Below are positions 2,289-63,492 of a DNA stretch of 64,000 nucleotides, in pieces; within the stretch, counting starts at the first letter, position 1, and each line of letters opens with the position of its first letter. Position numbers and translations under genes: made by a program. This stretch comes from Pirellulales bacterium. GTDB lineage: Bacteria > Planctomycetota > Planctomycetia > Pirellulales > Lacipirellulaceae. The stretch lies in NCBI GenBank assembly GCA_019636345.1, contig JAHBXQ010000002.1, forward strand, positions 186,001 to 250,000. The letters run 5' to 3'. The notes under the pieces are model-generated. The model worked only from the letters and a program-made list of their open reading frames with translations, was not told the origin of the DNA and did no database searches.

Positions 2289-2412
2289 CCGCGTCCAGTC
2301 GGTCCCAGGCCTGCCCCGCCTCGTCCGTTGTCACCCGGCCGAGGGATGCAAGTCTTGATTCGACAGGCCGTTCGGCTTCGTAAGCCGAAGGCCGACTGGA
2401 CGCGGTTTTTTT
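2289..2412 (+). other. strongly folded intergenic element ending in seven T, candidate terminator or small RNA
   Basis: The 404 bases between the mraZ-like gene and the next gene hold no supported ORF but show nested inverted repeats. An outer helix pairs 2289-2304 with 2390-2405 (16 pairs, one of them G-T). Inside it, 2308-2313 pairs with 2364-2369 and encloses 2319-2323 with 2340-2344. A separate hairpin pairs TTCGGCTT (2371-2378) with AAGCCGAA (2382-2389). Seven T follow at 2406-2412. Further downstream CCGAACTT (2488-2495) pairs with AAGTTCGG (2512-2519). The outer helix plus T-tract could terminate mraZ transcription; the internal branches are more than a terminator needs. It resembles no RNA family I recognise. 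Confidence 0.5.
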
Positions 2413-2602
2413 GCGCACCCATTAGAACGGCCATTGGCCTTCGCTGCAGGGAACCACGACGGCACGACTGTTGCGACGGCCTCCTTACCGAACTTGTCGT
2501 CGCGTCCGCCAAAGTTCGGAGAATTTGATTCGCGATCCTTCAAACTGTAAGTTGCATCTGCTCTGGACGCTCTAGAGTCCTCTTCTCGCTGCGGGCGCCT
2601 CC

Positions 2603-30154: not shown

Positions 30155-30668
30155 CCCAGAATCCTCTGTTCCGTCGGCGGCGCGGCCGAACTCGGCCGGG
30201 CGCTGCGCCCGTGGCTGCTGCGTACGCTCCGCGCGACGTGTGTGGAGTGACACGTCGAGACGAGACGAAGCCGAGCGTCCGCGACCGTTCCGGCGGTCGC
30301 AGTCGCAGCAGTGCCTTCTCTGCAATTGCAATCTATGCGCGGCAAGTGCGCAAAGTCAAACAACCCACGCATTTCCCGGGTTTGTCGCCGACAAAGCGGC
30401 GCGCCCCCGCGGCGGTTGCATGCGGCAGCAGGCTCCGCGGGAGTCGGCCCATCGTCCCCCCACGACATAGGGTCCATTCTAATCTGGTCGAATCGCTTGT
30501 ATAGCAGACGCTTGGACTTACGACGCGTTGCAGTCGCCCCTCCCGGCCGCCGGCCCCAGCCGCCCGCCCAGGTCCCGCCCGGGTTGCAGATCGCCGCTCC
30601 CCGCACAATAACTGGGGCGTTCCCGTCCGTTTTCCGCCTGAGCCGGCTTCAATCCCCCCGAGGCGAGC
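30155..30668. other. intergenic region between divergent pilMN and cmk
   Basis: 514 bases without a supported gene; it must contain the promoter of the pilMN operon (minus) and probably of cmk (plus). On the minus strand TAGAAT (30476-30481) is a possible -10 with no good -35, and the local sequence 30460-30510 is AT-richer. Nothing else recognisable was seen. Confidence 0.5.
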
Positions 30669-40279: not shown

Positions 40280-40750
40280 TCGCGGCGCGATGGCCGGTTC
40301 GCTGCTGAGGAAGCTCGCGTCAACCCGCGAAGCCGCAAATCCAGCCGCTGCACCGGGATGCGTGCTTGATGCGGATTGGGCCGCCGGTGTGCTACAATCG
40401 GTGCTGTCGCAAGGAGTTTGGACGACCCCCTCGGTCGGCGGGCCCGGGTGGCGCGCCGTTTGCCCTCTAACCCCGGCGGATCGCACGAATCCCGACGTTT
40501 TCCGCGGTTTTTTCGCGGGGACGTACGATTTTGCGCGGCAAGACGGGGCAATGGTCCCATCTTGCGACATTGGTCGATTCCCTCTGTGGAGGGGTCGTCG
40601 GCCCCTAATCCCAAAATGAGCACGGCAGCCAGTCGCGTTGGAATCCCCTCGGCGAACCCCCCGCGGCCTCCCCAGGCCTCGGGACGCCGGTTCTCCTGTC
40701 GACAGGCCCCGGCCGAGAGCGTGCGAATCCCCGCTTCAGGAGCAACGAGC
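40280..40750 (+). promoter_or_regulatory. long leader region of the pseudopilin operon with candidate extended -10 promoter
   Basis: 471 bases with no supported gene. TGCTACAAT at 40390-40398 is an extended -10 element without a good -35; it would give a leader of about 345 bases. Within the leader, CCGCG (40502-40506) and CGCGG (40514-40518) pair around a T-rich loop. An in-frame ATG at 40617 could start the first pilin, but AGGAG at 40738-40742 favours 40751. Confidence 0.4.
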
Positions 40751-41848
40751 ATGGACAATTCAGAGCGGTCGTCGACAGGTCGGTCCTCGCGCCTCGCAGG
40801 GCTGATTCGCGACCCACGGTCAACCGTCGCCGAGGGCCGGCGCGGCTTCACGCTCACCGAGCTGCTGGTGGTGATCAGCATCATCGCGATCCTGGCGTCC
40901 CTGGGGACCTACGCCGCGGTCAACGGCCTGAAGGCGGCCAAGCGGGGGCGGATCACGATGGAGCTCAACCAGCTCTCGCAGTCCGTCGAGGATTTCAAGA
41001 ACAAGTACGGGGCGTATCCTCCCAACGGCATGAACGACGGGAGCCGGAATTCGAAGAATCAGTACGTCAACCAAATCGTCGCCTCCGACTTCGCGCGGAT
41101 GTTCAAGAAGGCGTTTCCGCGGCATCGCGAGGACCCCGAACTGATCGCCGGTCTGGCGGGGGCCAGCGGCAACGCCGCGCCGCAGGCGCTCGAGGGGGGG
41201 ATGTCGGCTGGCGAGGCGGTCTACTTCTGGCTCGGCGGGTTCAGCGAGGACCCCGAGTATCCCATTTCCGGGCTAGGCGGACCTTCGTTCCGAATCGCGG
41301 ACGCCGCCGGCGAAGTCCTAGAGAACCGCACGCCGCTGTACCCGTTCGAGCTTTCGCGGCTCGGCCCGCGTCGTGACAACGGCCGTTTCAACGACGAACG
41401 GGGCTTTGGCAGATACATCGTCTACGACGATCCCCGCACCGGGGACGAGCGCCGGATCAATCTCTGGCAGTATCTGCCGGCCGGGTCGCAGCAACCGTAC
41501 GTGTATTTCGACGTCTCGCGGCACAAGCCGGCTGAGTATTCGCTCCCCGCGGCGCCCATGTCGGACGGCCAGGGGCGGTTGATCTATCCGCTGGTGAAGC
41601 TGCGCGAGGGGATCACGGCGATCAACGCGCCGGCGCAGGACATCGTGTTCGTCAACGGCGGCAAGTTTCAGATCCTGCACGCGGGGCTCGACGATGCGTG
41701 GGGGGACATGAGCGTCTCGACGATTCAGCAGTACGCCACGGCAGCGAACCTGTTCCTGGCCTTCCCGACCGGGCCGTTCACCGGCGACTTGGCGGACAAT
41801 TTGACGAACTTCACGACCGGCACCCTTGAGGACTCGCAGGAAGAATGA
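40751..41848 (+). CDS. type II secretion / pilin-like protein 1 (GspG-like N-terminus)
   Basis: 365 residues from the ATG at 40751, with AGGAG 8 bases before it. The class III signal ends at Gly32: GRRGFTLTELLVVISIIAIL, with Phe at +1 and Glu at +5, so prepilin peptidase would cut and methylate it. The hydrophobic helix runs to about residue 55. The rest is a large periplasmic domain (MELNQLSQSVEDFKNKYGAY is the GspG-like alpha-C region with YP at its end), then beta structure with many Pro and Gly. At about 330 mature residues it is twice the size of a classical GspG. First gene of a five-gene cluster; its stop overlaps the next start (ATGA). Confidence 0.85.
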   Translation: MDNSERSSTGRSSRLAGLIRDPRSTVAEGRRGFTLTELLVVISIIAILASLGTYAAVNGLKAAKRGRITMELNQLSQSVEDFKNKYGAYPPNGMNDGSRNSKNQYVNQIVASDFARMFKKAFPRHREDPELIAGLAGASGNAAPQALEGGMSAGEAVYFWLGGFSEDPEYPISGLGGPSFRIADAAGEVLENRTPLYPFELSRLGPRRDNGRFNDERGFGRYIVYDDPRTGDERRINLWQYLPAGSQQPYVYFDVSRHKPAEYSLPAAPMSDGQGRLIYPLVKLREGITAINAPAQDIVFVNGGKFQILHAGLDDAWGDMSVSTIQQYATAANLFLAFPTGPFTGDLADNLTNFTTGTLEDSQEE

Positions 41849-42987
41849 TCGCCGCAGCGGGATGCCTTCTGAGCGGGGTTCAGCGCAACGCCCGGCGTCG
41901 CGCGGCCGGCGGCGGTGCGTCCGGGCGGGGCGTGACCTTGGTCGAACTGCTGATCACGATCGCGATCCTGACGATCCTCGCCGCGGCGATCTACGGCGCC
42001 GCGGGCTCGGCGATGGAGTCGGCCCGTGCGGCCCGCACCAAAAGCACGATCGCCAAGATCCACGGCCTGCTCATGGAACGGTGGGAGTCGTACGAGACGC
42101 GGCGGCTGTCGTTGAACCCGGCGATCGTGCAGCAGATCAATCAGAACTTTCAGGGATTGGCGCGCAATCGCGTGATGTCCGATTTGCGGCTCCTCGCCCG
42201 TCGGGAACTGATGAAGCTCGAAATGCCGGACCGCTGGAGCGACGTGCTGAATGCGGGAGTGCCGACCGGAAACCCGAGCAGCGCCCCCGCGCCGACGACT
42301 TACTTTCTGTCGCAACCTTCGCCGCTGACTCAGTCCTACTACCGACGCTATTTGGCAACCGCCAATCGCGTCGATCGGGACACGTTGTTGGCGAACGAGG
42401 CCGCCGAGTGCCTGTTCATGACGATCATGTCCGCCACCGGCGACGGCGAAGCGAGAACGCTGTTCAGCGAACAGGACGTCGGCGACACCGACGGCGACGG
42501 CGCCCTGGAGTTCCTCGACGGCTGGGGGCAGCCGATTCGCTACATTCGCTGGCCGGCGGGGCATGTCGAGCGGTCGACGATCATGTCGGGCGATTGGGAG
42601 ACCGACCACGATCCGTTCGACGTGTTTCGCCGCGATGCGTTGCCGAGCAGTCTGTCTGCGATTCCCTACGGCAATTACCCGACGACGGCAATGCAAAGAT
42701 CCATGCAAGCGATTCAGAATCGCAACGCGCAGGCCGAGGCGGCGCTTGCCGGCACGCCTCGACAGTATTTGGGCGCCTTTCGTCTCGTGCCGCTCGTTTT
42801 CTCCGCCGGCCCTGATCGACGTACGGGTCTGGTCGTCGCGGTCGGATTTGCCGGGCCGACAGTCGCCGATCCGTACGCGCCGACGGACGTGGAACTCAAC
42901 GGCGTGGCTTTGCAACTCGGCGCCGTTTACGACGAAGACGGGCAAATCGACAGCGACAAAGACAACATCTCCAATCACGACGGCTAA
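41845..42987 (+). CDS. type II secretion / pilin-like protein 2
   Basis: 380 residues; its ATG overlaps the preceding stop by four bases, so the two are translationally coupled. The prepilin signal is GRGVTLVELLITIAILTILA with the cut after Gly29, Val at +1 and Glu at +5. The mature domain starts with a helix (ARAARTKSTIAKIHGLLMER) and contains mostly uncharacterised sequence. A central DVGDTDGDGALEFLDGWGQPI looks like a calcium-binding loop of the kind found in GspG/GspJ pseudopilins (D-x-D-x-D-G). The end also has Asp-rich loops (DEDGQIDSDKDNISN). Probably a minor pseudopilin. Confidence 0.82.
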   Translation: MIAAAGCLLSGVQRNARRRAAGGGASGRGVTLVELLITIAILTILAAAIYGAAGSAMESARAARTKSTIAKIHGLLMERWESYETRRLSLNPAIVQQINQNFQGLARNRVMSDLRLLARRELMKLEMPDRWSDVLNAGVPTGNPSSAPAPTTYFLSQPSPLTQSYYRRYLATANRVDRDTLLANEAAECLFMTIMSATGDGEARTLFSEQDVGDTDGDGALEFLDGWGQPIRYIRWPAGHVERSTIMSGDWETDHDPFDVFRRDALPSSLSAIPYGNYPTTAMQRSMQAIQNRNAQAEAALAGTPRQYLGAFRLVPLVFSAGPDRRTGLVVAVGFAGPTVADPYAPTDVELNGVALQLGAVYDEDGQIDSDKDNISNHDG

Positions 42988-43002: not shown

Positions 43003-44484
43003 ATGAACGGCGGCATGTCAACGCGAACGGCGGCGCTCCCGCGGCGGGATGCGGTCGCGGTGCGCCCTGCGCGGGGGGCGGTTCGCGGGATGACGCTGAT
43101 CGAGTTGTTGGTGGTCGTGGTGATCGTCACGACGCTGGTCGCGGGGGTCGTGCCGATCCTGTCGCCCAACAACGACGCGCGGAAGATTCGCGAGGGGGCC
43201 CGCAACCTCCACACGTTCATTGTCCGCACCCAGGCCGAGGCGGCCCGCACCGGCCGGCCGCACGGCATCGCGCTGCGCGAGACGGGCCCCGACAGCGGCT
43301 TCGCCTTGGAAGTCCACATGCTGGCCGAACCGGCGCCGTTTGCGGGGTTCACCGACTATTCGCGAGTCTACTTGCTCGCGATCGGCGGCGGCAATCAGAT
43401 CGACGGGCTGCAGTTCATCGCGTTCGACCCTGTGTCGGGCGGTTACGCGGCTGAGCCGATGCCTCCGCAGATGTTGCGTCGCGGCGACGTCGTTGAGGTC
43501 GACGGCGCGTTTTATGAGATCACCGACGGCGATCGAGACGGAGACAACGTCGACGATACGGCCAGCAGCACCCCGTTCGTTCGCGGCGACTACTACACGG
43601 TTCCGGGCAATCCGGGCATGTTCCAGAAGAGCTTCTTCCGCTGCGAACCTGTCAGCCGTCCCGCGCCGTTGTTGCCGCTTGGCGAGCAATCGATCGTCGA
43701 CGGCAACGGGGATTTTACATCCTGCGACCCGCTGAACAGCGGCACGCCGGCGCCCGCTTCGCCGCCGAAGGCGTACGTGATCCACCGGATGCCGGCTGCA
43801 ACCTCGGCGCCGCCGCTCACCTTTCCGCGCGGGATCGGCATCGATTTGGTCGCCTCGGGGCTCGATCGCGTCGAGTTCGGCGTGGAGACGAATCCCCTGG
43901 TGACTTCGCCGTACGCCCTGCCTTCGCCCAATCCCCCCTCGCCGCAGTTCGGACGGATGTTGTCTCGCGCGACGACGAGGCGACAAGGGGGGACGAACCC
44001 TCCGCCCCGCCTTTTCCCCGGCGGGAACGTCGCGGGGAACGAACTGCGGGTGTCGATCATGTTCCGGCCCAACGCCGGCATCGAGTCGGTGCTCGTCAAC
44101 GGCGAGGAGCAGCGCGGCTACACCAAGGCGTTCCTGCTGGTGGGGCGGATCGAGAACGCGGTCGCGGGCCTGCGCGGGGCGCAAGGGGCCGGGTATCCGG
44201 CCGTGCCGCCCGACCCGCCGGGGTCCGACTTCGGCAGCCTCGGCGCCGACGAGGACGAGTTCCGGCGGCTGCGGCGAGAACTCAACTGGCTCAACGCCGA
44301 CAGCCGGTGGGTCGCCCTGGGGGCGCGCAACGGCCGGGCGATCGTCAGCGAGAATCGGTTCGTCGACCCGCGCGGAAGCACGGTCGACTTTGACAACGAC
44401 GGAACCCAGTTGGAGCGCGATTACGACGACCAGATCGCCGCCGCCCACAGTTACGCCGCGGAATTGACGCGGTCGGATCAATAA
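43003..44484 (+). CDS. type II secretion / pilin-like protein 3 (GspH-like N-terminus)
   Basis: 493 residues. The prepilin signal is RGMTLIELLVVVVIVTTLVA with the cut after Gly29, Met at +1, Glu at +5. The region after the helix (NNDARKIREGARNLHTFIVR, TQAEAARTGRPHGI) resembles GspH/FimT pseudopilins, which have the S/A-x-x-x-R-A-x-R-TG-RP pattern. The large beta-rich domain contains a calcium-loop-like ITDGDRDGDNVDD. An ATG at 43015 is an alternative start. It lies 15 bases after gene 2. Much larger than classical GspH (about 170 residues). Confidence 0.82.
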   Translation: MNGGMSTRTAALPRRDAVAVRPARGAVRGMTLIELLVVVVIVTTLVAGVVPILSPNNDARKIREGARNLHTFIVRTQAEAARTGRPHGIALRETGPDSGFALEVHMLAEPAPFAGFTDYSRVYLLAIGGGNQIDGLQFIAFDPVSGGYAAEPMPPQMLRRGDVVEVDGAFYEITDGDRDGDNVDDTASSTPFVRGDYYTVPGNPGMFQKSFFRCEPVSRPAPLLPLGEQSIVDGNGDFTSCDPLNSGTPAPASPPKAYVIHRMPAATSAPPLTFPRGIGIDLVASGLDRVEFGVETNPLVTSPYALPSPNPPSPQFGRMLSRATTRRQGGTNPPPRLFPGGNVAGNELRVSIMFRPNAGIESVLVNGEEQRGYTKAFLLVGRIENAVAGLRGAQGAGYPAVPPDPPGSDFGSLGADEDEFRRLRRELNWLNADSRWVALGARNGRAIVSENRFVDPRGSTVDFDNDGTQLERDYDDQIAAAHSYAAELTRSDQ

Positions 44485-44501: not shown

Positions 44502-45887
44502 ATGCGCAAGCCCGTGGGACAACTCGAACGCCGCCTGCCTCGCCGATGCTTGGCCGGGCATGGCGTTTGCGCGGCCCCGCGCGGGCGCGCTCGGGGCGGC
44601 ATCAGCTTGCTCGAGGTGCTGATCTCGATGTTCGTGCTGCTGTTCGGCCTGATGGGGGTCGCGGCCATGTTCCCGGTGGGGAACCACTACGCGGCCCAGG
44701 GCCAGCGGTTCGACCGCGCCGCGGCGGCCGCCCCCGCGGCGTTCGCCGAGCTGAAGACCCGCGGCTATCTGCGGCCGGAGAAGTGGTTGTATGCACCCCT
44801 GCCGCCGACGTTGGCCGGTCAAGTTCGCATTTCGGATCCACAGAATCAAATCTATCCCGTCATGCTTACCGGGCATCACGGTCCGAACTACACCGGGGAG
44901 TTCAACCTCCCTTACCCTGCCGCGATTAATCAACCCCACCCTGGGTTCGCTTACGTCCTCGATCCTTTAGGTGTTGCAGCAGTCGTTAATCCAAACCCGG
45001 CCGACGCAAACGCCGCTTACTTTCCGGGCAGCATGTTTGACACTTCGGGCAGCGTTACACATGAAGGCTATCCCAACGTAGCGAATCCTTGGAATTCTGG
45101 CGGTTTGGCTGGTCAGGAGTGGCCGATCCGTCGCATCACGATCGGTCAATTCGTACCTTCCGCATTGAGTCGCCCAATGCCTCGCACGATTGCCGAGACG
45201 ACCGTTACGATCCGCGACGAGTTGAGCGTTGCGGTCCCCAAGAACGGCGACCTCCCCGGGCAGCAGTTGTGGAAGCTGGCCGATCCGAACGGAACCGAGA
45301 AGGACTTTTCCGACGACCTGCCGCTCGCTCGGCAGTACTCGGGCAATTACTCGTGGCTGGCGACGATCGCTCCGGCCAACACCGCGTCGGTGGTTGCGTT
45401 GCAGCCGGGGCATTCCGACTACGGGCTGCTGGCGTACGAGGTGTCGGTCGCCCTGTTCTCGCGCCGGGACGAGGTCCCGTCGCCGCAGAGCGAACGGGCG
45501 ATCGCCGCCGAGATGACGATCGGCGGAGAACTGGTCGCGTATTCGCCGGGGTACTCGAACGACGACCTCGACGCCGTGAACAACGCCTTGAAGGACATTC
45601 GCGCCGGCCAATGGATCGCGGTCGCCGGGGTGCATGCGACGACGGGCAATTTCCTGCTGAAGTGGTACCGCATCCTGTCGCTCCAGGACGAGATCAGCGA
45701 TACGACCGACGACCAGATCACGTTGTCAAACGGTTCCCGCGTTCTCGGCCGACGGCTGATGCTCGACGGGCCGGAGTGGCCGGTAAACTCGATGACCAAC
45801 CTCCGCGCCATCCTCCTGCCGGGGGTGTTCGGCGTGACGACGCAGGCGCTGAAGATGGAGACCGATTCGGCCTGGACGGTCGAGTGA
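44502..45887 (+). CDS. type II secretion / pilin-like protein 4 (GspI/GspJ-like)
   Basis: 461 residues. The prepilin signal is GGISLLEVLISMFVLLFGLM with the cut after Gly33, Ile at +1 and Glu at +5. The LLEVL-x-x-x-x-x-L pattern is that of GspI/PilV-type minor pilins. The rest of the protein has no recognisable domain. Bases 44820-45170, about residues 107-223, are clearly less GC-rich than the remainder (ATTTC, AATCAAATC, CCTTAGGTG), a patch of different base use inside the gene. It lies 17 bases after gene 3 and 80 before the giant gene. Confidence 0.8.
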   Translation: MRKPVGQLERRLPRRCLAGHGVCAAPRGRARGGISLLEVLISMFVLLFGLMGVAAMFPVGNHYAAQGQRFDRAAAAAPAAFAELKTRGYLRPEKWLYAPLPPTLAGQVRISDPQNQIYPVMLTGHHGPNYTGEFNLPYPAAINQPHPGFAYVLDPLGVAAVVNPNPADANAAYFPGSMFDTSGSVTHEGYPNVANPWNSGGLAGQEWPIRRITIGQFVPSALSRPMPRTIAETTVTIRDELSVAVPKNGDLPGQQLWKLADPNGTEKDFSDDLPLARQYSGNYSWLATIAPANTASVVALQPGHSDYGLLAYEVSVALFSRRDEVPSPQSERAIAAEMTIGGELVAYSPGYSNDDLDAVNNALKDIRAGQWIAVAGVHATTGNFLLKWYRILSLQDEISDTTDDQITLSNGSRVLGRRLMLDGPEWPVNSMTNLRAILLPGVFGVTTQALKMETDSAWTVE

Positions 45888-45967: not shown

Positions 45968-48900
45968 ATGAACGGAACACGAGGCACGGCAATGACGACA
46001 CGCACTGGGCGTCTCTCTGGCGGCAAGTCCCGACCGCGACGGTCGTTGCGCCGGCGGGGCGCGCTGCGGGCCGCGGCGGCGCGCCGGCGGGGCGTGCTGC
46101 TGCTGGTCGTGCTCAGCATGCTGGTGCTGTTTCTGCTGTTGGGGACCGCGTTCGTCGTCTCGACCAAGCAGGACGAGCGGACGATGAAGGCCCAGGCCGC
46201 GGCCGCCCGCGTGGCGACCGCCGCCGCCTCGGAAGGCAACCTGCTGGACGAGGTCCTCGCTCAACTGGTGCGCGACACCAAAAACGTCCACAGCAGCCTG
46301 CGCAGCCACTCGTTGCTGGCCGACATGTACGGCAACGACGGGTTCACGGCGACGCTCGGTCAATGGCCCGGCAATCCGCCGGCGCTGCCGGTCGATTGGG
46401 CCGGGGGGGACTACGCCCGCACCGGCGGGCAGTTGATCGATCTAGCGATTGCCATTAGCCAGACGATAACCCCGCCTGTAACCCCGCCTGTAACCCCGGC
46501 GATTCCGCCGAATCTGCCGTTGGCGTTTACGCAGTACGACAAGACCAATCCGACGACGCTGTCGCACCTCGACGACGCCTACGCGGGGCAGGTCCTGACG
46601 TTCCTCAACGGCAAGGCCGCGGGCATCAGCACGCGAATCGTGCGGTACGCCCCGGCCACGTACGACGACAACAACGGCGTCGTGCTGACCCCGCCGCGGC
46701 TGACGGTGCTGGAGTTCAAGCTGGCCGACGGCCGCAACCTAGCGACCGCGACGAACAACGGGGCGATCCCGCTGGGGGTCGCCCTGGCGCCTTCGGCCGA
46801 TCTGCCGCTGCGGGTCTTGGTGAACGGCAAGCCGTTCAGCGGCACGGGGGTCGGGTACGCTCCGACCATGCCTGCGGATTACAACGGACCGCGTTTGGTA
46901 GCTGGCGTTCCGATCCAGGGGGTGAGAGTATTTCACCAACGCCCTGGGGCGCGTGGCGGGTTTTGGGAAGGCGATCCGCCGCTTGCATTGTTGCCGAATA
47001 CTACGACCTTCGACGTGGGGTCTGTGGTCGTCAGGGCTCCCTCGGCCAGCGGGCCGGTTCCCACACCGTACATGGCGCCCGGCATGATCGACTACGCCGG
47101 TCGCGGGGGGGCGAACGAGTCGTACGATGCGCCCGATTTCCAGAACATGTTCCTGGCGGCGATGGATCTGCCGGGCAACGGGAGATTGCGCGAGTCGGTC
47201 GGTTTCAATAGCGCCGCTCTCAACGACATGGTCCTGCCGTCGTTCCATCGACCGGCGCTGCTCAATTACTGGAAGAATCAAGCGGCCACGAACAACCCGT
47301 TTGCGAGCAATCCGCTGCACTTGCGCAAAGTGCTGTTGCGACCCAATTGGCTGGATCACCCTAACTTTACGGGAAGCAATCCCGAGTACGATGCGGCGAA
47401 ATCCGCGACTCCGCCAGCGACCGGCCACGCAAACGCGCTCAACCGCATGATCTACGGCCCGTGGGACGTCGACAACGATTTGGACGGGGTGCGGGACAGC
47501 GTCTGGGTCGACTTCGGCGTCCCGGTCATGCAGGGGATCGACGGCAAGCGGTACAAGGCCCTGGCCGCGATCCTGTGCCTCGACCTCGACGGCCGGGCGA
47601 ACGTCAACGCCGCGGGGTCGCTCGATTTGGCGGGGGTCGGTTCGACGCCGCCGCGCGGGCGTCCTGTGGCAGGCGGGGGAACTTTGGACGACATGCCTCG
47701 CGGCACGGGTTTCGGACCGGCTGATTTTAGCCTGCAGCAAATCGTCGGCGGCGACTTCGAACGACTGCTCGTCGGCGATCGGGTGAACGTCAGCGGTCAG
47801 CCGACCGACTTCCCCGGTCGGTACGGGTATGACAACGTCGCGACCATGCCGAACAACAACGCCCGGCCCGGGTGGCCGACGCACATGGACCCGTTGGCCC
47901 AGGTGGCGCGGTACGGCTGGCCCGGCAACCCGCGCACGCAAGGCTTGGCCCCGGCCGGCAAGTTCGGCACGCTTCCCGATCTTTCGGCCCGGTACGCGAT
48001 GGGGCTGAACGACCTGGGGCAACCGGTCTGGGGATCGACCTACGAGTGGGGGTCGCAGTACACGACGGTCGACTCGCCGTACGAACTCAATCTGTCGGAA
48101 GACGCCCCGGTCGGCACAAGCACCGCGGCGGCCGACGCCCCGTTCACGCTGTTCGAACTGGAGCGAGCGCTGCGGCTGTACGACGTCGACGCCGCGGGGC
48201 TGCCGGCGCGATTCACGGTGCTCGCCGGGATTCAAAACCCCGACGGCAGCGGCGATCCGTACGACCGTCAACGATTGACGACGATCAGCTACGACGTGCC
48301 GGCGCCGAGCGTCACGGTGCCGAAGCCGCTGCGACGCCTCATAGCCACACAACAACAGCTACAGAGCATTAGTTCTGAGTTGCAACTACGTACACCGCGA
48401 ACACCCGCAGAATTGTTTGAGATTCGCGTGAGGTATGAGCTTAATGAACGAACGCCGCCTGTAGTCGGAAGTCCCTTTCCGCCATGGCCTGCCCCGTTGG
48501 ACATGCAACAACAGCTTGAGGTACGAAAGGTGTTGCGGCGGATCGTCGCTCCCGAGTTGATGGCGGGGGGCAAGATCAATCTCAACCGTCCGCTCGGCAA
48601 CGGGCTGGACGACAACGGCAACGGCGTGGTCGACGAACCGGGCGAAGACGTCGGCTTGCCCTACTTCGACAACAACGGCGACGGGCGGATCGACGGCGCC
48701 GACAGTATCGACCAGGCGTTTCGCAGTACGGTGTGGCCTGCCCGAGCGGCCAACTCCGTGCCGGCGTACGACGGTGCGGCCGACGGCATGATGATCGGAT
48801 ACCAGGGAGCCCAATTCGCGGGCGCTTACGACGTCAGTCCCAACGACGGCGTATCGCTGACGCCGGCCGATCCGCGGACGCTGCTGGCCCGGCACTTGTT

Positions 48901-51900
48901 CGTGCTCGCGCTCAACACGGCCGCGCCGGACGATTACGACCCGCGCACCAAGGCCAAGGACGCGGCGCTGGCTCGGCAGATCGCCCAATGGGCGATCAAC
49001 GTCGTCGATTTCCGCGACGCCGACAACATCATGACGGCGTTCGAGTATGACGCGAATCCATTCGACGGCTGGGACGTAGATGGAGATCCAGGGACGCTCG
49101 ACGTTTATGGTCCGAACGGTATTCCAGACGATCCAAGCCCTGGTAGCGACGATATTGGCGGGCTGGTGTGGGGCGCCGAGAGGCCGGAACTGATCGTCAC
49201 CGAGCAGATGGCTTGGCACGATCGTCGGACCGAGGACACGCGGCTGGAAGACCCGAACCAGGGCGAAGACGCGGCCTATTACGACGCCCAGCAGGCGCTC
49301 CTCGATCCGAAGCGGTACGATCTCGATTACGACCAGTTGACCCGGCCGCAAGGGTTCTGGGCGATCGAGCTCTACAATCCGTGGGAGCCGAGCGCGGGGG
49401 CGCAAGGAGACACTCGCCTGACGAGCACGATGCGCCCCGGCGCGATGAGCGTGGCGCAACCGGGCAGGGATCTCGGGGTGAATCTTGCGGCAACGTCTGT
49501 GGCGAACGACCCGCGCAGGGCGACTCCGCGACCGTCGCCCGTGTGGCGGATCGTGAGTTACCGCGACGCGCTGCGGACCGATCCCGCGGGGCCGACGCTG
49601 CCGAAAGATCCCGATGCACAGCCGCCGCGCGGTCGAGACCAACTGCTGCGGCTGACCCAGCCGGATCGAAGCGTCTACTTCACGGGGACCGCGATCGGCG
49701 ACCCTGGCTACGGCGACGACGGCGTGGCGTTTTTCAGCTCGGCGACCAACGAGAATCACAACCTGTGGGTGCGGCCGGTGCGTCCCGGGCGCTATACGGT
49801 GGTGACGTCAGGTTTTCGACTCCAGGGCGGGGGAGATACGGAGTTCGTCAACCACTTGGGGAATTTCGACGGGACGTCGAAGGAGCAAGGGCCCGGGCTG
49901 CGGTTCCGCGTCGGCACGGGCGGGCTGTTCGGACGACCGGACAATCGACCGATCGAGTGGTTGCGTAACGATCTGGTCGGTTCCCTTCGTTCCCCGACCG
50001 TGTCGGCTGCGTTGGATCTGCAAGGCTTCGAGACGGGCTGGCCGATGGCCGACGTGGCGATCATCGACAGTGTCGACGCCAATTCGGTGTACGACCCGAA
50101 CCGCAATCAGCGCATCCCGATCACCCCCTCGGGCAACGCGATTCGTCGCCGGCTCACTCTGTCCGAGCCGGCGCTGGGCTACCAGCGCGGCGGCCGGTTC
50201 CGCGACATCGGCGGCAATCACGACACGCAGTGGGTCGACGCCGATCCGCAGATCAATACGGACAATCGGGTGACGGCTCGGGGCCGCTTTCCCTATCACC
50301 CCGAAGGGGAGTATCAGGACGGCAACGGCCAGAGCAAGCCGATCGACACGCCGCTCGACGATCCGACGATGCGGTACGACGGCGAGACCCGGCTGGCGAC
50401 GCGCGGGCTGATCACGAATTACCAGTGGATCTACCTGCAGCGGCTTGCGAACCCGCTGTTGCCGTGGAACCCGGCGCCGGGGACCGTGTTCAATGCGGCC
50501 GGGGCCGACCAATACCGCAACGATATGGTCGTCAACCCGTATCTGACGATCGACGACAACTCGGCGAATCTGTTCGTCTTCAACGGCGTGAAGAACCAGA
50601 ACAGCAACGACACTGGGGCCGGCGAGCAGTTCAACCCGACTTTCCAGCCGCCGAAGCACTCCAGCCAAAACGAGGCGGCCGTTGATTTTGCCAGCATGGA
50701 ACGCGGTTGGAGCCAAGACCCGCAGCAGAATCGGCTCAACAACGTGCTGCAAAACGTGAATCCCTGGCTGAGCGAGAATCCCTGGGTGAACGGCCGACCG
50801 CGGGTGCGTCCCGGGGGGACCGCCCGCGTGGGGGCCGCCGCCGCCTCGCCGCCCCCCTTCCGCGGCAAGCCGCGGTGGTCGATGGGCTACCTCAATGAAA
50901 GTTTCGATCGCGACGACAACGGCAACGGCGTGGTCCCTGATCAGCCGTTCCCGATGATGGCTTGGAACAACCGGCCGTACCAAAGCGAGGCCGAGTTGAT
51001 GCTCGTCCCCGCGCAGCGCTCGTCGCAATTGCTGCGGTCGACCGGGGTGGTCGACACGGCGAGCACGGCCCGCACCGATCAGGCTTGGCCGTACGCCGCC
51101 GCGATGCCGATTCCGATCAGCCGGTACACGCGGGCCGACCAGCCGAACAAGTACGGCTTCGGCTACACGCTCAACTTCTTCTATGAAGGCCAGGGGGGCG
51201 GGATCGACCCGGCGACGGCGCCCACGCCGCCGGCGAACACGACGTTTGCGCCGACGGGCATGTCGGCGGTGCTGGACTTGGTCGAGGTGAAATCGGAATT
51301 CGCGGGGACCGACACGTGGCTCAACCCGCAGAAGTTCAGCGTTGCCAACCCTCAGGCGACCCCGTCTTACGACGACGTGATCGTGCGGTTCATGGCGCCG
51401 AACAACTCCGTCTCCAATCAGCGGGAGCCGGGGAAGATCAATCTCAATACGATCAACAGTCCGGAGGTTTACGCGGGGCTGTTTCACGATTCGCCAGATA
51501 ACGTGAACGCCGTGACGCCGGCGGCGCGGGGTCACGCTCGACCCCGGTGGCGCGACGATCAGGCGGCCAACCGGGCAAGTCCGAACGTCGATACGCCGTT
51601 TACGTCGTCTCGTCGCGGTTACCAGACTGCAACGGCGTCTCGACAGCCATTTGCGTTCGACCCGAACGTGCCGACGTTCTTTGCCAATCCGTTCCGCAGC
51701 GCCAACGCGGGAGATCTCGTCCCCTTGGTGCAGATGGTTCGGCCGGCAGGGGTCGACGCAGGTCTGGCGCGCAGCCGGAACGTGCCGATCGTCTCCAACG
51801 CGGGCGGAGGTTTGTTGACGAACTTGCTCGACGGGACCAACAGTCCGCTCAAGCCGGTCGGCAATCCGCTGTTCGCGAGCACGACGTCGGCCAACCCGAT

Positions 51901-52279
51901 TCCTGCCCTCGACGGGACGCGAAGCTCCTACTTTTTCGCCAAACCGGCGAGCCGCGTGGCGAGCATGACGACCAACCGCAGCAATTGCTATGCGGTGTGG
52001 GTGACGATCGGGTTCTTCGAGGTCGACGAGGCGCCGACGTTGGCGCAGTTTGTTTCCAGCAACGGTCTGGGCAACCTGCCGATCGAGGAGCGGACGGCGC
52101 ATTACCTCCGCGTCTACCCCGACGGCGTGCAGTTCGGTCGCGAAATCGGCCTGGATACGGGCGAGGTGCGGCGGCTGCGCGGGTTTTACGTCATCGATCG
52201 GAGCCGGCCCGCGGCGTTCGAGCCGGGGGTCGATCATAACGTCGAGAACGTCGTGCGGCTCAAACGGCGGATCGAATGA
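45968..52279 (+). CDS. giant GspK-like pseudopilin (2103 residues)
   Basis: The reading frame from the ATG at 45968 (MNGTRGTAMTTRTGR) codes for 2103 residues; an ATG at 45992 is an alternative. The basic N-terminus ends RRRGVLLLVVLSMLVLFLLL, a prepilin-like helix without Glu at +5, as in GspK, the only pseudopilin that normally lacks it. Near residue 1820 EPGKINLNTINSPEVYAGLF matches the GspK helix-hairpin motif (NLNTA..VL). Many Asp-rich loops look like calcium sites: DVDNDLDGVRDS, DDNGNGVVDEPGED, DNNGDGRIDGADS. Classical GspK has about 320 residues, so this is over six times longer. A 12-base tandem repeat occurs at 46468-46491 (VTPPVTPP), and AT-richer patches at 46870-47020, 48335-48530 and 49060-49160. 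Function beyond tip pseudopilin is unknown. Confidence 0.82.
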   Translation: MNGTRGTAMTTRTGRLSGGKSRPRRSLRRRGALRAAAARRRGVLLLVVLSMLVLFLLLGTAFVVSTKQDERTMKAQAAAARVATAAASEGNLLDEVLAQLVRDTKNVHSSLRSHSLLADMYGNDGFTATLGQWPGNPPALPVDWAGGDYARTGGQLIDLAIAISQTITPPVTPPVTPAIPPNLPLAFTQYDKTNPTTLSHLDDAYAGQVLTFLNGKAAGISTRIVRYAPATYDDNNGVVLTPPRLTVLEFKLADGRNLATATNNGAIPLGVALAPSADLPLRVLVNGKPFSGTGVGYAPTMPADYNGPRLVAGVPIQGVRVFHQRPGARGGFWEGDPPLALLPNTTTFDVGSVVVRAPSASGPVPTPYMAPGMIDYAGRGGANESYDAPDFQNMFLAAMDLPGNGRLRESVGFNSAALNDMVLPSFHRPALLNYWKNQAATNNPFASNPLHLRKVLLRPNWLDHPNFTGSNPEYDAAKSATPPATGHANALNRMIYGPWDVDNDLDGVRDSVWVDFGVPVMQGIDGKRYKALAAILCLDLDGRANVNAAGSLDLAGVGSTPPRGRPVAGGGTLDDMPRGTGFGPADFSLQQIVGGDFERLLVGDRVNVSGQPTDFPGRYGYDNVATMPNNNARPGWPTHMDPLAQVARYGWPGNPRTQGLAPAGKFGTLPDLSARYAMGLNDLGQPVWGSTYEWGSQYTTVDSPYELNLSEDAPVGTSTAAADAPFTLFELERALRLYDVDAAGLPARFTVLAGIQNPDGSGDPYDRQRLTTISYDVPAPSVTVPKPLRRLIATQQQLQSISSELQLRTPRTPAELFEIRVRYELNERTPPVVGSPFPPWPAPLDMQQQLEVRKVLRRIVAPELMAGGKINLNRPLGNGLDDNGNGVVDEPGEDVGLPYFDNNGDGRIDGADSIDQAFRSTVWPARAANSVPAYDGAADGMMIGYQGAQFAGAYDVSPNDGVSLTPADPRTLLARHLFVLALNTAAPDDYDPRTKAKDAALARQIAQWAINVVDFRDADNIMTAFEYDANPFDGWDVDGDPGTLDVYGPNGIPDDPSPGSDDIGGLVWGAERPELIVTEQMAWHDRRTEDTRLEDPNQGEDAAYYDAQQALLDPKRYDLDYDQLTRPQGFWAIELYNPWEPSAGAQGDTRLTSTMRPGAMSVAQPGRDLGVNLAATSVANDPRRATPRPSPVWRIVSYRDALRTDPAGPTLPKDPDAQPPRGRDQLLRLTQPDRSVYFTGTAIGDPGYGDDGVAFFSSATNENHNLWVRPVRPGRYTVVTSGFRLQGGGDTEFVNHLGNFDGTSKEQGPGLRFRVGTGGLFGRPDNRPIEWLRNDLVGSLRSPTVSAALDLQGFETGWPMADVAIIDSVDANSVYDPNRNQRIPITPSGNAIRRRLTLSEPALGYQRGGRFRDIGGNHDTQWVDADPQINTDNRVTARGRFPYHPEGEYQDGNGQSKPIDTPLDDPTMRYDGETRLATRGLITNYQWIYLQRLANPLLPWNPAPGTVFNAAGADQYRNDMVVNPYLTIDDNSANLFVFNGVKNQNSNDTGAGEQFNPTFQPPKHSSQNEAAVDFASMERGWSQDPQQNRLNNVLQNVNPWLSENPWVNGRPRVRPGGTARVGAAAASPPPFRGKPRWSMGYLNESFDRDDNGNGVVPDQPFPMMAWNNRPYQSEAELMLVPAQRSSQLLRSTGVVDTASTARTDQAWPYAAAMPIPISRYTRADQPNKYGFGYTLNFFYEGQGGGIDPATAPTPPANTTFAPTGMSAVLDLVEVKSEFAGTDTWLNPQKFSVANPQATPSYDDVIVRFMAPNNSVSNQREPGKINLNTINSPEVYAGLFHDSPDNVNAVTPAARGHARPRWRDDQAANRASPNVDTPFTSSRRGYQTATASRQPFAFDPNVPTFFANPFRSANAGDLVPLVQMVRPAGVDAGLARSRNVPIVSNAGGGLLTNLLDGTNSPLKPVGNPLFASTTSANPIPALDGTRSSYFFAKPASRVASMTTNRSNCYAVWVTIGFFEVDEAPTLAQFVSSNGLGNLPIEERTAHYLRVYPDGVQFGREIGLDTGEVRRLRGFYVIDRSRPAAFEPGVDHNVENVVRLKRRIE

Positions 52280-52598: not shown

Positions 52599-54380
52599 AT
52601 GATGCGTAAGTTGTTCGCTCCCCTGCCGGCCGTCGCGTTGGTCGTTGCGCTCCTCGGATTGACTCCGCTGGTCTCCCGCGCCGCCGTGTTGGGCCAAGGA
52701 GACGTGCTGCCCGATCCGCTGGGCGATTTGCTCGACGTCGTCGACGGCGGTTCACTTGCCGAATTGATCGTCGGCGGGACCGGTCAGTTTATCGACGGGA
52801 CCGACGCCGGCGTGCTGACGATCGACGCCCCCACGTTCACCGATCCGCTGGAAGTGACCGGCGACGCCACGATCGGCGGCGAGGAGTTTAGCTTAGGACA
52901 GGTGATTATCGGCGGGCTCAATTCGCAATTGAGCGTCGACGGCGTTCTGCGCGTCGGCGAAGGGGGACAAGGGTTCTTGGAGATCAGCACCGGGGCCCGG
53001 GTGATCTCGAACTTCAGTTCCAACCCGGGGCAAATTACTTCCCCGGACTTGATCATGGGCGAGCTCGAAGGCGCCCAAGGGTTCATCCTCATCGACGGTT
53101 TCGCGTCGTCGCTCGTCTCCGACAACATGTGGATCGGCAACGAGGGGAGCGGGTACATCGGGCTCGCTAACCGGGCCCGCATGGGCACCTCGGAGACGGC
53201 GCGGCTCGGGGTCGAAGACATCGGCGAGGGCTACGTGCTGGTCCAAGGTCTCGGCAGCCGGTGGAACGTCGGCGACGGCCCCAATTTCCCCGGCGATCCG
53301 GCGCTGGCGAATCTTGACATCGGTTACGCCGGGCGCGGCGGGGTCGAGATGCTCGAACAGGGAGTGATTCGGGTCGAGAACAACGCGACCCTCGGAGTGC
53401 TCACGAATTCCTATGGCGAAGCGTACGTCAGCGGCCAGGGTTCGCAGTTCTGGGTGCTGAACAACCTGACCGTCGGGGTCGCCGGCGCCGGCGTGTTGCG
53501 AGTCGCCGATCGGGGGCTCGCGCGCGTCGACGGCGTCATGACCGTCAATGCGGTCAGCTTCGTCAACATGGCCGGCGGGACGGTGCGGGTTGATTCGGGC
53601 CTCGGCACGATCGCCAACGCCGGCGTCATCCGCGGCGACGGGCGGATCGAAGGGAGCATCGCCAACGGCATCGGCGGCGAATTGCGGGCCGCGAGCTTGC
53701 CCGGGTACGTCCGCGAGAAGCTGCTCGTGACCGGCGACGTGACCGGCGGGGTGATCGAGGCCTTCGGCGGCGAGATCGAGATCCAAGGCGCGCTGACCAG
53801 TCCCACGGAAATTCGCATCAACAACGGCATCGTCCGCGTTGGCGGGGTGTTCACCGCGGGGGCGGCGGTCGACTTCACCCTGTCCAGCGACCCGGCCGCG
53901 ATCTTCGCCGCCAGCACGTCCCTGTCGGGCGATTTGACCGTCAACTTCGGCAGCGGGTTCAACCCGAGCGCGACCGAAACCTTCACGCTGATTTCGGGCG
54001 GCCCGGTGAGCGGCACGTTCGCCAGCGAGAACCTGCCGACCGGCTGGAACGTGTACTACCTGCCGACGAGCGTCGTGTTGCAAAACGCGGCGCTGCCGCC
54101 GATCTTCGCGGCGGCCGACTTCAACGAGGACGGGTTCGTCGACGGGACCGACCTGAGCCTGTGGCAGGCCGGGTACGGCACGGGGTCGGGAGCGGCGCAC
54201 GGCGACGGCGACGCCAACACCGACGGCGCGGTCAACGGGACCGACTTTCTCACGTGGCAGCGGCAGTTCGGGTCGGGTGCGCCGGCGGCGCCGCTGGTGG
54301 CGGCCGTGCCCGAGCCGGCGACGCTGACCCTGGCCGTGCTGGCCGGGTTGGGACTCGCGGCTCGTCGCCGGGCGAAGTAG
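52599..54380 (+). CDS. PEP-CTERM sorted protein with dockerin-like calcium repeats
   Basis: 593 residues. A signal peptide (KLFAPLPAVALVVALLGLTP, cleaved near SRAA) is followed by a long repetitive beta-solenoid-like body (short repeats such as GSGYIGLANRARMG, GEAYVSGQGSQFWVLNNLTV and GVLRVADRGLARVD), of the autotransporter/adhesin passenger type. Residues about 498-555 hold two dockerin-I-like calcium loops (ADFNEDGFVDGTDLSLWQAG and GDANTDGAVNGTDFLTWQRQ). The C-terminus is a PEP-CTERM tag, VPEPATLTLAVLAGLGLAA with RRRAK, recognised by exosortase, so the protein is processed and bound to the surface. Two adjacent ATG codons (52599, 52602) could start it. Likely cell surface or matrix protein; binding partner unknown. 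Confidence 0.9.
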   Translation: MMRKLFAPLPAVALVVALLGLTPLVSRAAVLGQGDVLPDPLGDLLDVVDGGSLAELIVGGTGQFIDGTDAGVLTIDAPTFTDPLEVTGDATIGGEEFSLGQVIIGGLNSQLSVDGVLRVGEGGQGFLEISTGARVISNFSSNPGQITSPDLIMGELEGAQGFILIDGFASSLVSDNMWIGNEGSGYIGLANRARMGTSETARLGVEDIGEGYVLVQGLGSRWNVGDGPNFPGDPALANLDIGYAGRGGVEMLEQGVIRVENNATLGVLTNSYGEAYVSGQGSQFWVLNNLTVGVAGAGVLRVADRGLARVDGVMTVNAVSFVNMAGGTVRVDSGLGTIANAGVIRGDGRIEGSIANGIGGELRAASLPGYVREKLLVTGDVTGGVIEAFGGEIEIQGALTSPTEIRINNGIVRVGGVFTAGAAVDFTLSSDPAAIFAASTSLSGDLTVNFGSGFNPSATETFTLISGGPVSGTFASENLPTGWNVYYLPTSVVLQNAALPPIFAAADFNEDGFVDGTDLSLWQAGYGTGSGAAHGDGDANTDGAVNGTDFLTWQRQFGSGAPAAPLVAAVPEPATLTLAVLAGLGLAARRRAK

Positions 54381-57983: not shown

Positions 57984-58460
57984 GTGCTCGACTACGACTT
58001 TGAGAACAGCCTCGGGTTTTGGCTGGTCGGGGCCCATCATGCGTACATCCGGGCGTTCCACGAGCGGTTGGGGCCCCATGGGATCACCTTCCGGCAGGCG
58101 CAGGTCTTGGGGTGGCTCGCTCTGGAGGGCCCGCTCCCCCAGGCCGAACTCGCCGCCCGGATGATGATCGAACCTGCCAGCCTAGTCGGGGTCCTGAACC
58201 GCATGGAGCGGGACGGCTGGATCGAACGGCGCGAGTGCTGCCACGACGGTCGCAAGAAGCTGGTCACGCTGTTGCCGGCGGCGTGCCGCGTTTGGGAGAC
58301 GATTGCCGAAGTGGGTCGTGAGATGCGGCGCCGGGCGTCGGCAGGATTGTCGCCCGCGGAGCTGGCGACGCTCCGCGAGTTGCTTGGCCGGGTCCAGCGC
58401 AACGTCCAGCCCTCGCTGCCGGCGGCTGATGCAACGGCCGCCCGCGGAGCGGCGTCATGA
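57984..58460 (+). CDS. MarR family transcriptional regulator, GTG start
   Basis: 158 residues. The start is fixed by a strong Shine-Dalgarno site, GGAGG at 57972-57976, seven bases before the GTG at 57984, which gives MLDYDFENSLGFWLVGAHHAY; an ATG at 57948 lacks a site. The winged helix spans about residues 25-105: GITFRQAQVLGWLALEG, PLPQAELAARMMIEPASLVG (recognition helix), LNRMERDGWIERRECCHDGR (wing with conserved D-x-R) and KKLVTLLPAA. A Cys pair sits in the wing (RECCHDGRKK), a possible redox sensor. It is the first gene of an operon with an RND pump, its stop overlapping the next start (ATGA), and probably represses that operon. Confidence 0.93.
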   Translation: MLDYDFENSLGFWLVGAHHAYIRAFHERLGPHGITFRQAQVLGWLALEGPLPQAELAARMMIEPASLVGVLNRMERDGWIERRECCHDGRKKLVTLLPAACRVWETIAEVGREMRRRASAGLSPAELATLRELLGRVQRNVQPSLPAADATAARGAAS

Positions 58461-59821
58461 CCGCCACGAACAGAGAGATCGACATCATGCAGTTACGCAC
58501 ACGACGGGCAAGCGCCGCGGTCGCGGGGGCGCTGGCGGCGGTTCACTTGGCGGCGGTTCCGATCGCAGCACAGGGACCGCCGGGCGCGATGCCCCCGTCG
58601 CCGGTGGTGGCGTTCGAGCTGATCCAGGAAGAGGTCGTCGCCGGGCAGACCTTCGTCGGCACGATCATGCCGCTCAAGCGGGCGACGATCGGCAGCGCCG
58701 TGGCCGGGCGGGTGATCGAGTTTCCCCGCAAGGCGGGCGAACGGGTCGCCAGCGGCGAGAAGTTGGCCCGACTGCTGACGCAAACGATCGAGTTGGAAAC
58801 GGCCGCGGCGGAGCAGGAATTGAAATTTCGCGAGGCGCAGCTTGACGAGCTGAACAACGGCACGCGCCCCGAAGAGCTCGAACAGCGGCGTGCGGAGCGC
58901 GACGGCGCAGCGGCCCGCGAGGCGTTTCTCAGCGCCCGGCGAGCCCGGCTTGACCGAGCCCGCAACTCCGGCCCTGGGGCGATCACCGACGATCAGTACG
59001 AAGAGGCTCGTTCGGCCGAGATCGAGGCTCACGAGGTCTTCCTGTCGGCCTCGGCGGCGTACGAGTTGGCCAAGGCAGGCCCGCGGAAAGAGCTGATCGC
59101 CCAAGCCGCTGCGCAGGTGGCGATGCAGAAGGCGGTCGTCGAGCGGCTCCACGACCAGATCACCAAGCACACGATGATCTCGCGGTTCGACGGATATGTC
59201 GTCGCCGAATTCACCGAGGAGGGCGCCTGGGTGAACGCGGGCGACCCGGTGGCCGAGGTCGCGGCGCTCGACGAGGTCGACGTCGAGGTGCAGGTCGTCG
59301 AGCAGGCAGTCCCGTTCGTGCGAATTGGCGAGGTCGTGCGGGTGGACATTCCGTCGTTGCCCGAGCGGATCTTCGAGGGGACCGTGGCTCAGGTCGTGCC
59401 GCAGGCCGACATTCGCTCGCGCACGTTCCCGGTGAAGATTCGCGTGAAGAACGAAATTACTCGGGACGGTCCGCTGCTGAAGGCGGGAATGTACGCCCGC
59501 GCTGCGCTGCCCGCGGGAGTGCGTCAGCAGGCGATCCTGGTCCCCAAGGACGCAATCGTCCTGGGGGGCGGAGCGCCGATGCTATACGTGATTCAACAAG
59601 GGGCCCCAGCGGGGCCCGGAGCGGCGCCCGCGGCCGAAGCGGGTCCTTCGGCGACGACCGTGGTTCCCGTTCCCGTTCAACTGGGGGTGAGCCGCGGGCC
59701 GCTTATCCAGGTGATCGGCGAGCTTCGACCGGGGCAACTGGTCGTCATCCAGGGGAACGAACGCCTGCGTCCCGGGCAAGCGGTGAGCGTCGCACAGATT
59801 GCCAAGGGTTACGCCGAGTAG
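58457..59821 (+). CDS. RND efflux periplasmic adaptor (HlyD/MFP family)
   Basis: 454 residues. The start overlaps the marR stop; an internal ATG (MQLRTRRASAAVAG, residue 11) might be used instead. A signal-like hydrophobic stretch (RASAAVAGALAAVHLAAVPI) leads to the adaptor body: a lipoyl half (RATIGSAVAGRVIEFPRKAG), an alpha-helical hairpin (about 110-240, ELKFREAQLDELNNGTRPEE), the second lipoyl half (MISRFDGYVVAEFTEEGAWV) and beta-barrel and membrane-proximal parts (VDVEVQVVEQAVPFVRIGEV). A Pro/Ala/Gly insert (about 385-405) precedes the end. It bridges the RND permease and an outer-membrane channel, which is not encoded in the window. Confidence 0.94.
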   Translation: MTATNREIDIMQLRTRRASAAVAGALAAVHLAAVPIAAQGPPGAMPPSPVVAFELIQEEVVAGQTFVGTIMPLKRATIGSAVAGRVIEFPRKAGERVASGEKLARLLTQTIELETAAAEQELKFREAQLDELNNGTRPEELEQRRAERDGAAAREAFLSARRARLDRARNSGPGAITDDQYEEARSAEIEAHEVFLSASAAYELAKAGPRKELIAQAAAQVAMQKAVVERLHDQITKHTMISRFDGYVVAEFTEEGAWVNAGDPVAEVAALDEVDVEVQVVEQAVPFVRIGEVVRVDIPSLPERIFEGTVAQVVPQADIRSRTFPVKIRVKNEITRDGPLLKAGMYARAALPAGVRQQAILVPKDAIVLGGGAPMLYVIQQGAPAGPGAAPAAEAGPSATTVVPVPVQLGVSRGPLIQVIGELRPGQLVVIQGNERLRPGQAVSVAQIAKGYAE

Positions 59822-59919
59822 ACGCGGGCCGGTCGTGACAAGACAACTCCCGGCAACCGCGGTCCTTGGCGGCATTCGCTTGAGATCCCGAGCCGTCGTA
59901 CTCTCTGCACAAATCTGCC

Positions 59920-63492
<3,573 letters not shown>

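Follow-up and report, generated by a model that had tools for sequence, protein, structure and literature searches.

The 64,000-nucleotide stretch analysed here (the window: positions 186,001 to 250,000 of contig JAHBXQ010000002.1, assembly GCA_019636345.1, from a Pirellulales bacterium of the Lacipirellulaceae) contains on its forward strand, at positions 45968-52279, an open reading frame (ORF) of 2,103 uninterrupted codons. A sequence-only reading of this DNA had proposed a 2103-residue GspK-like pseudopilin at this place, and the frame indeed translates without a stop into a product of 2,103 amino acids, hereafter the giant. It lies behind four prepilin genes, in the K position, which is occupied by GspK in type II secretion and by PilX in type IV pili. 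The ORF, its N-terminal helix, its family, the gene order in relatives, the order of motifs and the motor genes were all established by computation; they lead us to regard the giant, on balance, as a greatly enlarged minor pilin of the K position.

The protein opens with an Arg-rich leader, followed by G42-VLLLVVLSMLVLFLLLGTAFVV, and its prepilin-like helix (GVLLLVVLSML) begins at residue 42. AlphaFold predicts a single helix over residues 43-102 (block predicted local distance difference test, pLDDT, 74-92), which is slightly longer than the usual pilin helix of about 50-55 residues; the prepilin-type Gly and the helix (residues 42-102) are encoded at 46091-46273 (+). Position +5, numbered from the residue after Gly42, is Val. 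This position could be read in register in 68 of the 71 distinct relatives (L084, with its start cut, and the out-of-register L135 and L145 were left out), where it is Val in 51, Ile in 8, Leu in 6, Phe in 2 and Ala in 1, and Glu in none. The absence of Glu at +5 from the N-terminal helix, pointed out by the sequence-only reading, therefore extends to the relatives, and the giant has the prepilin-type leader and Glu5-less helix expected of a GspK, with cleavage predicted.

Homologues devoid of this helix had been named beforehand as an observation that would speak against a pseudopilin. The helix is visible in 68 of the 78 named loci, while L104 starts within it at the edge of the record and nine loci do not show it. 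In eight of these nine (L084, L094, L097, L099, L123, L128, L129 and L132) the frame is open up to the record edge, so that the start is missing. L147, the remaining one, is a fragment that includes unread bases and is preceded by an in-frame stop. Among the 78 named loci we thus saw no complete homologue, and none with an intact start, that lacks the N-terminal helix. The idea of TGA readthrough (the matches of some relatives hold one TGA) was dropped; the match in genome G005 extends 60 bases 5' of the ORF's first start codon.

The giant protein family

Relatives with 40-49% identity to the giant match it across nearly the whole length, and the ORF is therefore not a chance open frame. A search with the single sequence detected a relative in 55 of 59 genomes, and a 48-row profile of the C-terminal half found the family in 170 of 196 sampled Pirellulales genomes, a lower bound, as the profile searches scored at most four candidates per genome. 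In a phylum-wide sample, matches occurred in 13 of 199 genomes (the source genome itself, two others of the order, nine of another family of the class and one elsewhere). Lacipirellula limnantheis and Adhaeretor mobilis both belong to the Lacipirellulaceae within the Pirellulales. The class-level giants are linked to those of the Pirellulales with an HHalign E value of 5e-75 and, judged by their profiles, belong to the same superfamily. No match to the family was found in plasmid records.

The giant is the single match in the source genome of 5.18 Mb. A locus of another genome (L070 of G058) encodes two giant K-position proteins, as ORFs of 1,567 and 1,207 amino acids on one contig with prepilin genes around them. 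The mature length ranges from 1,191 to 3,187 amino acids across the 71 distinct relatives. Longer proteins are longer in all six segments between alignment anchors (correlation with total length between 0.81 and 0.96), and the segment of residues 1012-1668 grows the most.

Searches of the giant against Pfam and NCBIfam returned no family at E<=1. Among 21 relatives searched at E<=0.1, there was one match to Dockerin_1 (E=0.021) and one to an acetyltransferase model (E=0.0034), in one member each, and the family profile gave nothing credible among PDB sequences (one row, E=2.6). Among the titles and abstract openings listed by our searches of one open-access library, none describes the family or a K-position pilin of this size.

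Prepilin array and motor genes

The four genes upstream of the giant, all on the forward strand, encode a major, G-type prepilin (GFTLTELLVV; 40616-41848, with an inferred start in an ORF that opens at 40376; PF07963 E=1.3e-6; TIGR01710 E=1e-6, over the N-terminus only and below the cut-off), a G'-type prepilin (GVTLVELLITI; 41845-42987; PF07963 E=2.9e-6), an H-type prepilin (GMTLIELLVVV; 43003-44484; PF07963 at the cut-off; TIGR01708 GspH E=2.1e-7, below the cut-off) and an I/PilV-type prepilin (44502-45887; PF07963 E=0.006 and TIGR02523 PilV E=6.8e-4, both below the cut-off). Glu5 is directly visible in three of the four. The source genome as a whole contains 78 matches to the N_methyl prepilin signal at E<=0.1.

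Comparison of homologues and their gene order, suggested by the sequence-only reading as a check, revealed a conserved array of prepilin and motor genes. Its usual composition is PilT, PilB/GspE and PilC/GspF, then prepilins of the G, G', H and I types, with the giant last or nearly last. Upstream genes were counted in those 37 named loci where the giant is complete and the upstream sequence spans at least 6.5 kb. Exactly four prepilin-type ORFs precede the giant in 27 of them and three in 7, with five, two and none in one locus each; of the motor genes, PilC/GspF precedes it in 36 loci, PilB/GspE in 35 loci and PilT in 34. Locus L093 has none of these upstream genes. Four relatives were read further upstream (L223-L226 with L049, L050, L054 and L057, the genes being named by their likeness to those of locus L066, described below), and all show the order PilT - PilB - PilC - prepilins - giant; three of them have another PilB ahead of PilT.

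In the three class-level loci whose upstream region was read (L228-L230), the I-type gene is separated from the giant by a further prepilin of the FTLVE type, which gives the order G, G', H, I, J, K (with J assigned by position), i.e. that of the Escherichia coli gsp operon plus one gene. In L229 and L230 another prepilin-type gene follows the giant. The giant gene thus has the place of a GspK gene, after the G, H, I and, in these loci, J types.

In the source genome a PilB-PilT-PilB-PilC cluster lies on another contig (L066 on C4) than the prepilins and the giant, and the operon is therefore split. Of its gene matches, that of PilT to TIGR01420 exceeds the cut-off with 461 bits, while those to TIGR02538 and TIGR02120 are strong yet below their strict cut-offs. 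Prepilin peptidase matches occur at two places, one of which (L068) is beside genes read as Tad-type. A leader, a pilin-like helix and linkage to an assembly ATPase and platform, as expected of a pilin of a type IV filament, are all present, the linkage being taken from the relatives. Type II secretion operons are not known to include a PilT-type retraction ATPase. The presence of PilT upstream of the giant in the relatives, a point missed by the sequence-only reading, therefore makes the system more similar to a type IV pilus than to a classical type II secretion system.

Relation to GspK

The giant has several features in common with GspK/XcpX (PF03934, PF21687; structures 5VTM and 3CI0), namely the absence of Glu5, a gene placed after the H- and I-types, Asp-rich loops resembling calcium sites and, less certainly, the order of four short motifs. 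It differs in length (2,103 residues versus 327 in GspK of E. coli K-12), in the absence of a match to the GspK hidden Markov models (HMMs), in the PilT genes of the relatives' operons and in the existence of a separate canonical GspK in the same genome. This conventional GspK, also missed by the sequence-only reading, has 563 amino acids (L064:9076-10767; PF21687 E=1.4e-19; PDB 5vtm_X E=4.8e-5), and the giant is consequently not the GspK of that type II secretion system. Other planctomycetes encode GspK-like proteins of 1,127 to 1,744 amino acids (L187, L189, L190, L192-L197), which are linked to GspK by HHalign with 97.7% probability; one of them, the 1,572-residue protein of L189, exceeds the cut-off of PF03934. 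For a second set of large planctomycete proteins the HHalign probability is 98.6%. Enlarged GspKs thus do exist in the phylum, and the giant is probably, though not certainly, one that has diverged past profile detection.

Since no GspK HMM matches the giant, four short GspK motifs were scored over the aligned giants. The motifs were built at first from picked rows (17, 11, 13 and 17 per motif, mostly from 21 aligned GspKs) and later from all 21 rows. Their best places with all rows are residues 543 (DxDGRxNxN), 1015 (VVDFRDAD), 1676 (NRPxxSxxELMLVP) and 1829 (GKINLNT), in the order found in GspK, and both places and order are the same in the two versions. The giant of the window carries M1 at residues 533-548 (..LDLDGRANVNA; 47564-47611), M2 at 1006-1019 (AQWAINVVDFRDAD; 48983-49024), M3 at 1667-1681 (NNRPYQSEAELMLVP; 50966-51010) and M4 at 1819-1834 (REPGKINLNTINSPEV; 51422-51469), all on the forward strand. 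The last includes the motif noticed in the sequence-only reading near residue 1820, and EPGKINLNT does start at that residue. Of 200 permuted motifs, 0, 2, 0 and 0 reached the observed scores of M1 to M4 when all rows were used, and 0, 3, 0 and 1 with the picked rows of the first version.

The ordered sum of the four motif scores (all 21 rows) has a median of 43.9 in the 71 giants, 17.6 in 355 shuffled sequences and 16.6 in 44 control proteins, and 69 of the 71 giants exceed both the 99th percentile of the shuffles (31.7) and the top control (31.8). The 99th percentile was exceeded by 66 giants in the first version and by 67 with picked rows. A first control set of 100 proteins (maximum 91.2) included GspK loci and was rebuilt with 49 proteins; the five highest (35.0 to 56.3) matched the window giant at BLASTP E<=5e-32, i.e. 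were missed family members, and their removal left the 44, which were only partly checked by BLAST. In the first motif version 5 of the 10 class-level giants were above the 99th percentile, and the two sets of large planctomycete K proteins, with medians of 42.7 and 37.6 versus 39.3 in giants, lie in the giants' range.

The sequence-only reading had described many Asp-rich, calcium-loop-like motifs. Such loops exist, but our own strict EF-hand-like pattern finds four, starting at residues 502, 881, 901 and 1649, a number reached by none of 1,000 shuffles. The first (residues 502-511, DNDLDGVRDS; 47471-47500) contains D502, N503, D504 and D506, which are invariant in a 21-row alignment; the following two (residues 881-890 and 901-910) are encoded within 48608-48697 and the last (residues 1649-1658) at 50912-50941, all on the forward strand. 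At least one loop is present in 77 of 79 family rows (duplicates included). The loops suggest a head stabilised by calcium. The C-terminus is formed by a conserved segment (residues 2003-2103; 51974-52276, +), beta-rich in the AlphaFold model, with the end DRSxPxxF...RxIE in the alignment.

For structure prediction the giant was folded as two fragments, residues 42-1130 and 960-2103, with mean pLDDT values of 67.5 and 68.1, so that the N-terminal helix and the C-terminal strands fall in separate fragments. For the C fragment VIA-align returned only tailspike rows (Z 2.5); no GspK row appeared, a result which by the tool's own note excludes nothing. Residues 123-289 (window 46334-46834) form in the model a small beta-barrel like that of a gene-transfer-agent particle protein (6tba_7A, Z 6.7, 76 residues, 2.4 A), and also resemble EF-Tu and ATPase chains, all below Z 8; this middling likeness possibly reflects just a common arrangement.

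A number of results weigh against a GspK-like identity of the giant. The HMM search with GspK/T2SSK (PF03934), proposed as a check by the sequence-only reading, failed to give a match at E<=1, as did PF21687; neither matched any of the 21 relatives at E<=0.1, and the PilX model PF14341 had no match among 21 giants at the same threshold. We therefore regard the giant as a minor pilin of the K position, and not as an established member of Pfam T2SSK. HHalign gave a probability of 6% for the giants versus 21 canonical GspKs, 0.2% and 0.6% versus the two sets of other large Ks, and 4% for the class-level giants versus canonical GspK. The profiles thus fall into two groups, the giants with the class-level giants and the large Ks with canonical GspK (E values 2.4e-12 and 7e-16); a bridge from the giant to GspK was sought via the 10 class-level giants or the 9 and 14 large GspK-like proteins, and yielded no significant link between the groups. 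The Foldseek searches of the PDB with both middling-confidence fragments gave no match at E<=0.001, so that structure lent no support to a GspK-like fold, nor, with models of this confidence, did it count firmly against one.

The motif evidence has weak points of its own. Motif boundaries were chosen after the giants had been seen, the least convincing of the four is M2, and an NxN core common to M1 and M4 makes these two related motifs. The sum of the window giant, 32.7, is just over the 99th percentile of the shuffles and the top control and under the highest shuffle (37.5). In the first version only 29 of 71 giants scored best in the canonical order out of the 24 possible, as did 1 of 10 class-level giants, none of the 9 large Ks of one set and 1 of the 14 of the other; for comparison, the numbers were 12 of 21 for canonical GspKs, 12 of 100 for proteins of the unclean control set and, for the 71 giants, 2 when shuffled and 7 when reversed. 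Gene order also provides counter-arguments. No J-type prepilin was seen in the array of the window, the motor genes of this genome lie on the other contig, so that their partnership with the giant here rests on relatives, and a large prepilin-type ORF (503-785 amino acids) directly follows the giant in 6 of the 40 named loci whose downstream sequence covers at least 3 kb, which makes the giant usually, but not always, the last gene. In these six loci (L096, L109, L121, L130, L145 and L152) the ORF starts 3 to 105 bases past the giant, and it may encode a J-type pilin without counterpart in the array of the window.

Proposed role and neighbouring genes

The explanation that we favour, and hold to be somewhat better than an even bet, is that the giant is a minor pilin of the GspK/PilX kind, in the K position of a type IV filament that has a PilT-type ATPase, and that it forms a tip module with an enlarged GspK-like head. 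Its closest competitor is a tip protein or adhesin of the same pilin class and operon whose ancestor was not a GspK; the NxN and DxD motifs would have arisen by convergence, and the helix and the position would be all that it shares with GspK. The lack of any significant HHalign or HMM link to GspK fits this alternative, which is less easily reconciled with four motifs in GspK order whose scores surpass almost every permuted motif, shuffled sequence and control protein, with a K position after the H and I types, and with clearly GspK-like proteins of 1,127 to 1,744 amino acids in the same phylum, and we regard it as less likely, though far from negligible. The resemblance to GspK claimed by the sequence-only reading is accordingly supported in part, by the missing Glu5, the gene place and, less firmly, the motif order, and finds no backing in profile comparisons: the motifs are in order and above controls, yet the HHalign probability is low.

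The sequence-only reading also left a choice between a giant tip protein and a substrate travelling on a pseudopilus, and it is the tip protein that our data favour. A secreted giant carried out by the filament by means of a prepilin-type signal would account for the large ectodomain with calcium-type loops and for the strong length variation among relatives, but a regular place in the array beside motor genes, presence in most of the sampled genomes of the order and a signal followed by a long predicted pilin-like helix leave it very improbable. We give even less credence to a structural or envelope-spanning protein, such as a scaffold in the periplasm or a coat on the cell surface, for which the prepilin pathway would serve membrane insertion only: size and the lack of recognised domains are compatible with such a protein, and its gene would be hard to place in an operon with PilT, PilB, PilC and usually four prepilins.

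If the giant is a K-position minor pilin, a prepilin peptidase would remove the long Arg-rich leader after Gly42, and the helix of about 60 residues would dock with the H- and I-type minor pilins, starting the filament. A missing Glu5 is in keeping with a subunit that has no other one above it, which would place the giant at the tip. The exposed part of approximately 2,000 residues may then be a much enlarged and interrupted GspK-like head, putatively stiffened by bound calcium. PilB/GspE acting on the PilC/GspF platform would carry this head outward and PilT could pull it back, and the head would presumably bind an extracellular ligand such as a surface, a secreted partner or a polysaccharide. 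The likeliest role of the giant is therefore that of a calcium-loop-bearing tip module, which would both initiate the filament and attach to a target.

This arrangement would agree with that of known minor pilins. GspK has been proposed to sit at the pseudopilus tip together with GspI and GspJ, with an alpha-domain inserted in the pilin sheet (PMC8179133), and it has calcium sites, although the calcium residues are absent in some species, and is considered to control pseudopilus length (PMC6211770). The type IVa operon of the minor pilin PilX has a PilV-like gene upstream, as is the case here, and genes of the PilT, PilB, PilC and PilM types occur in the giant's genome; PilX itself is small, unlike the giant. 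Modular pilins (PilB of Streptococcus sanguinis, ComZ, CofB) similarly combine a pilin helix with a large module presented by the filament. The most extreme multi-domain example that is named in a published survey has 860 residues (PMC8179133), versus 1,191 to 3,187 in the giants. No domain of an extra module was recognised in the giant with Pfam or NCBIfam, apart from the weak barrel resemblance of residues 123-289 described above; the giant looks like an unusually large, extreme variant of a modular pilin.

Verru_Chthon cassette protein A (TIGR02600, 1,296 positions) is also large, and the N-terminal part of its model matches large planctomycete proteins with a prepilin-like helix; the cassette C and D models match prepilin N-termini here. 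TIGR02600 does not match the giant at E<=1, nor anything else in its genome at E<=0.01 (4 of 13 candidates scored); it has matches in 67 of 149 planctomycete genomes, almost all of them confined to the N-terminus and none over the cut-off. Locus L237 and others encode proteins of about 1,000-1,900 amino acids with an N-terminus of this kind, several per genome in some cases; two are adjacent in L237, and for many the retrieved stretch shows no gene of the prepilin type.

The minor pilins found at the tips of filaments are usually only a few hundred residues long. A pilin that occupies the tip position with 1,200 to 3,200 residues, and that most of the sampled genomes of the order retain, would show to what extent a tip can be enlarged, and the giant provides a concrete gene for testing how planctomycetes bind and take up macromolecules. 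A more speculative extension, which we consider rather unlikely, is that the giant serves to capture food, as the head of a feeding filament that can be retracted, in which PilB would push the tip out through the outer membrane, the tip would bind macromolecules such as branched polysaccharide, and PilT would retrieve the tip and its cargo to the periplasm. Estimated at 110 Da per residue, the tip would have a mass of about 230 kDa, and that of the longest relatives would exceed 300 kDa. We put this idea forward because of published observations on related strains and on another planctomycete. A comparison with type IV pili has been made for the fibres of strains K22.7 and FF011L, described together with A. 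mobilis; the same paper cites appendages of Planctopirus limnophila that bind carbohydrate and are linked with its crateriform pits, and its passages on the fibres name no tip protein (PMC8303584). In P. limnophila, deletions of three pilQ-like genes have been obtained (PMC11958385). If true, the feeding filament would be a secretion-like machine run in reverse, and could explain at the molecular level the carbohydrate-binding fibres that planctomycetes have been reported to bear.

Two neighbouring genes are possible partners of the giant's system. One, at 27872-30331 on the reverse strand, encodes a PilM alignment protein (PF11104 E=1.4e-30), which is the only PF11104 match of the genome. It is followed by two reverse-strand genes (26277-27779 and 24063-26189), whose products each appear to have one N-terminal hydrophobic segment and have no Pfam match, and which occupy the place expected for PilN/O/P-like genes. 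The other candidate, directly downstream of the giant (52599-54380, +), encodes a PEP-CTERM protein with T5SS-type/PEP-CTERM-associated repeats and dockerin-like loops; it is lineage-specific, as relatives are present within 2.5 kb downstream in only 5 of 42 named loci. Further downstream (58457-63492, +) lies an ordinary pair of resistance-nodulation-division (RND) efflux adaptor and permease genes.

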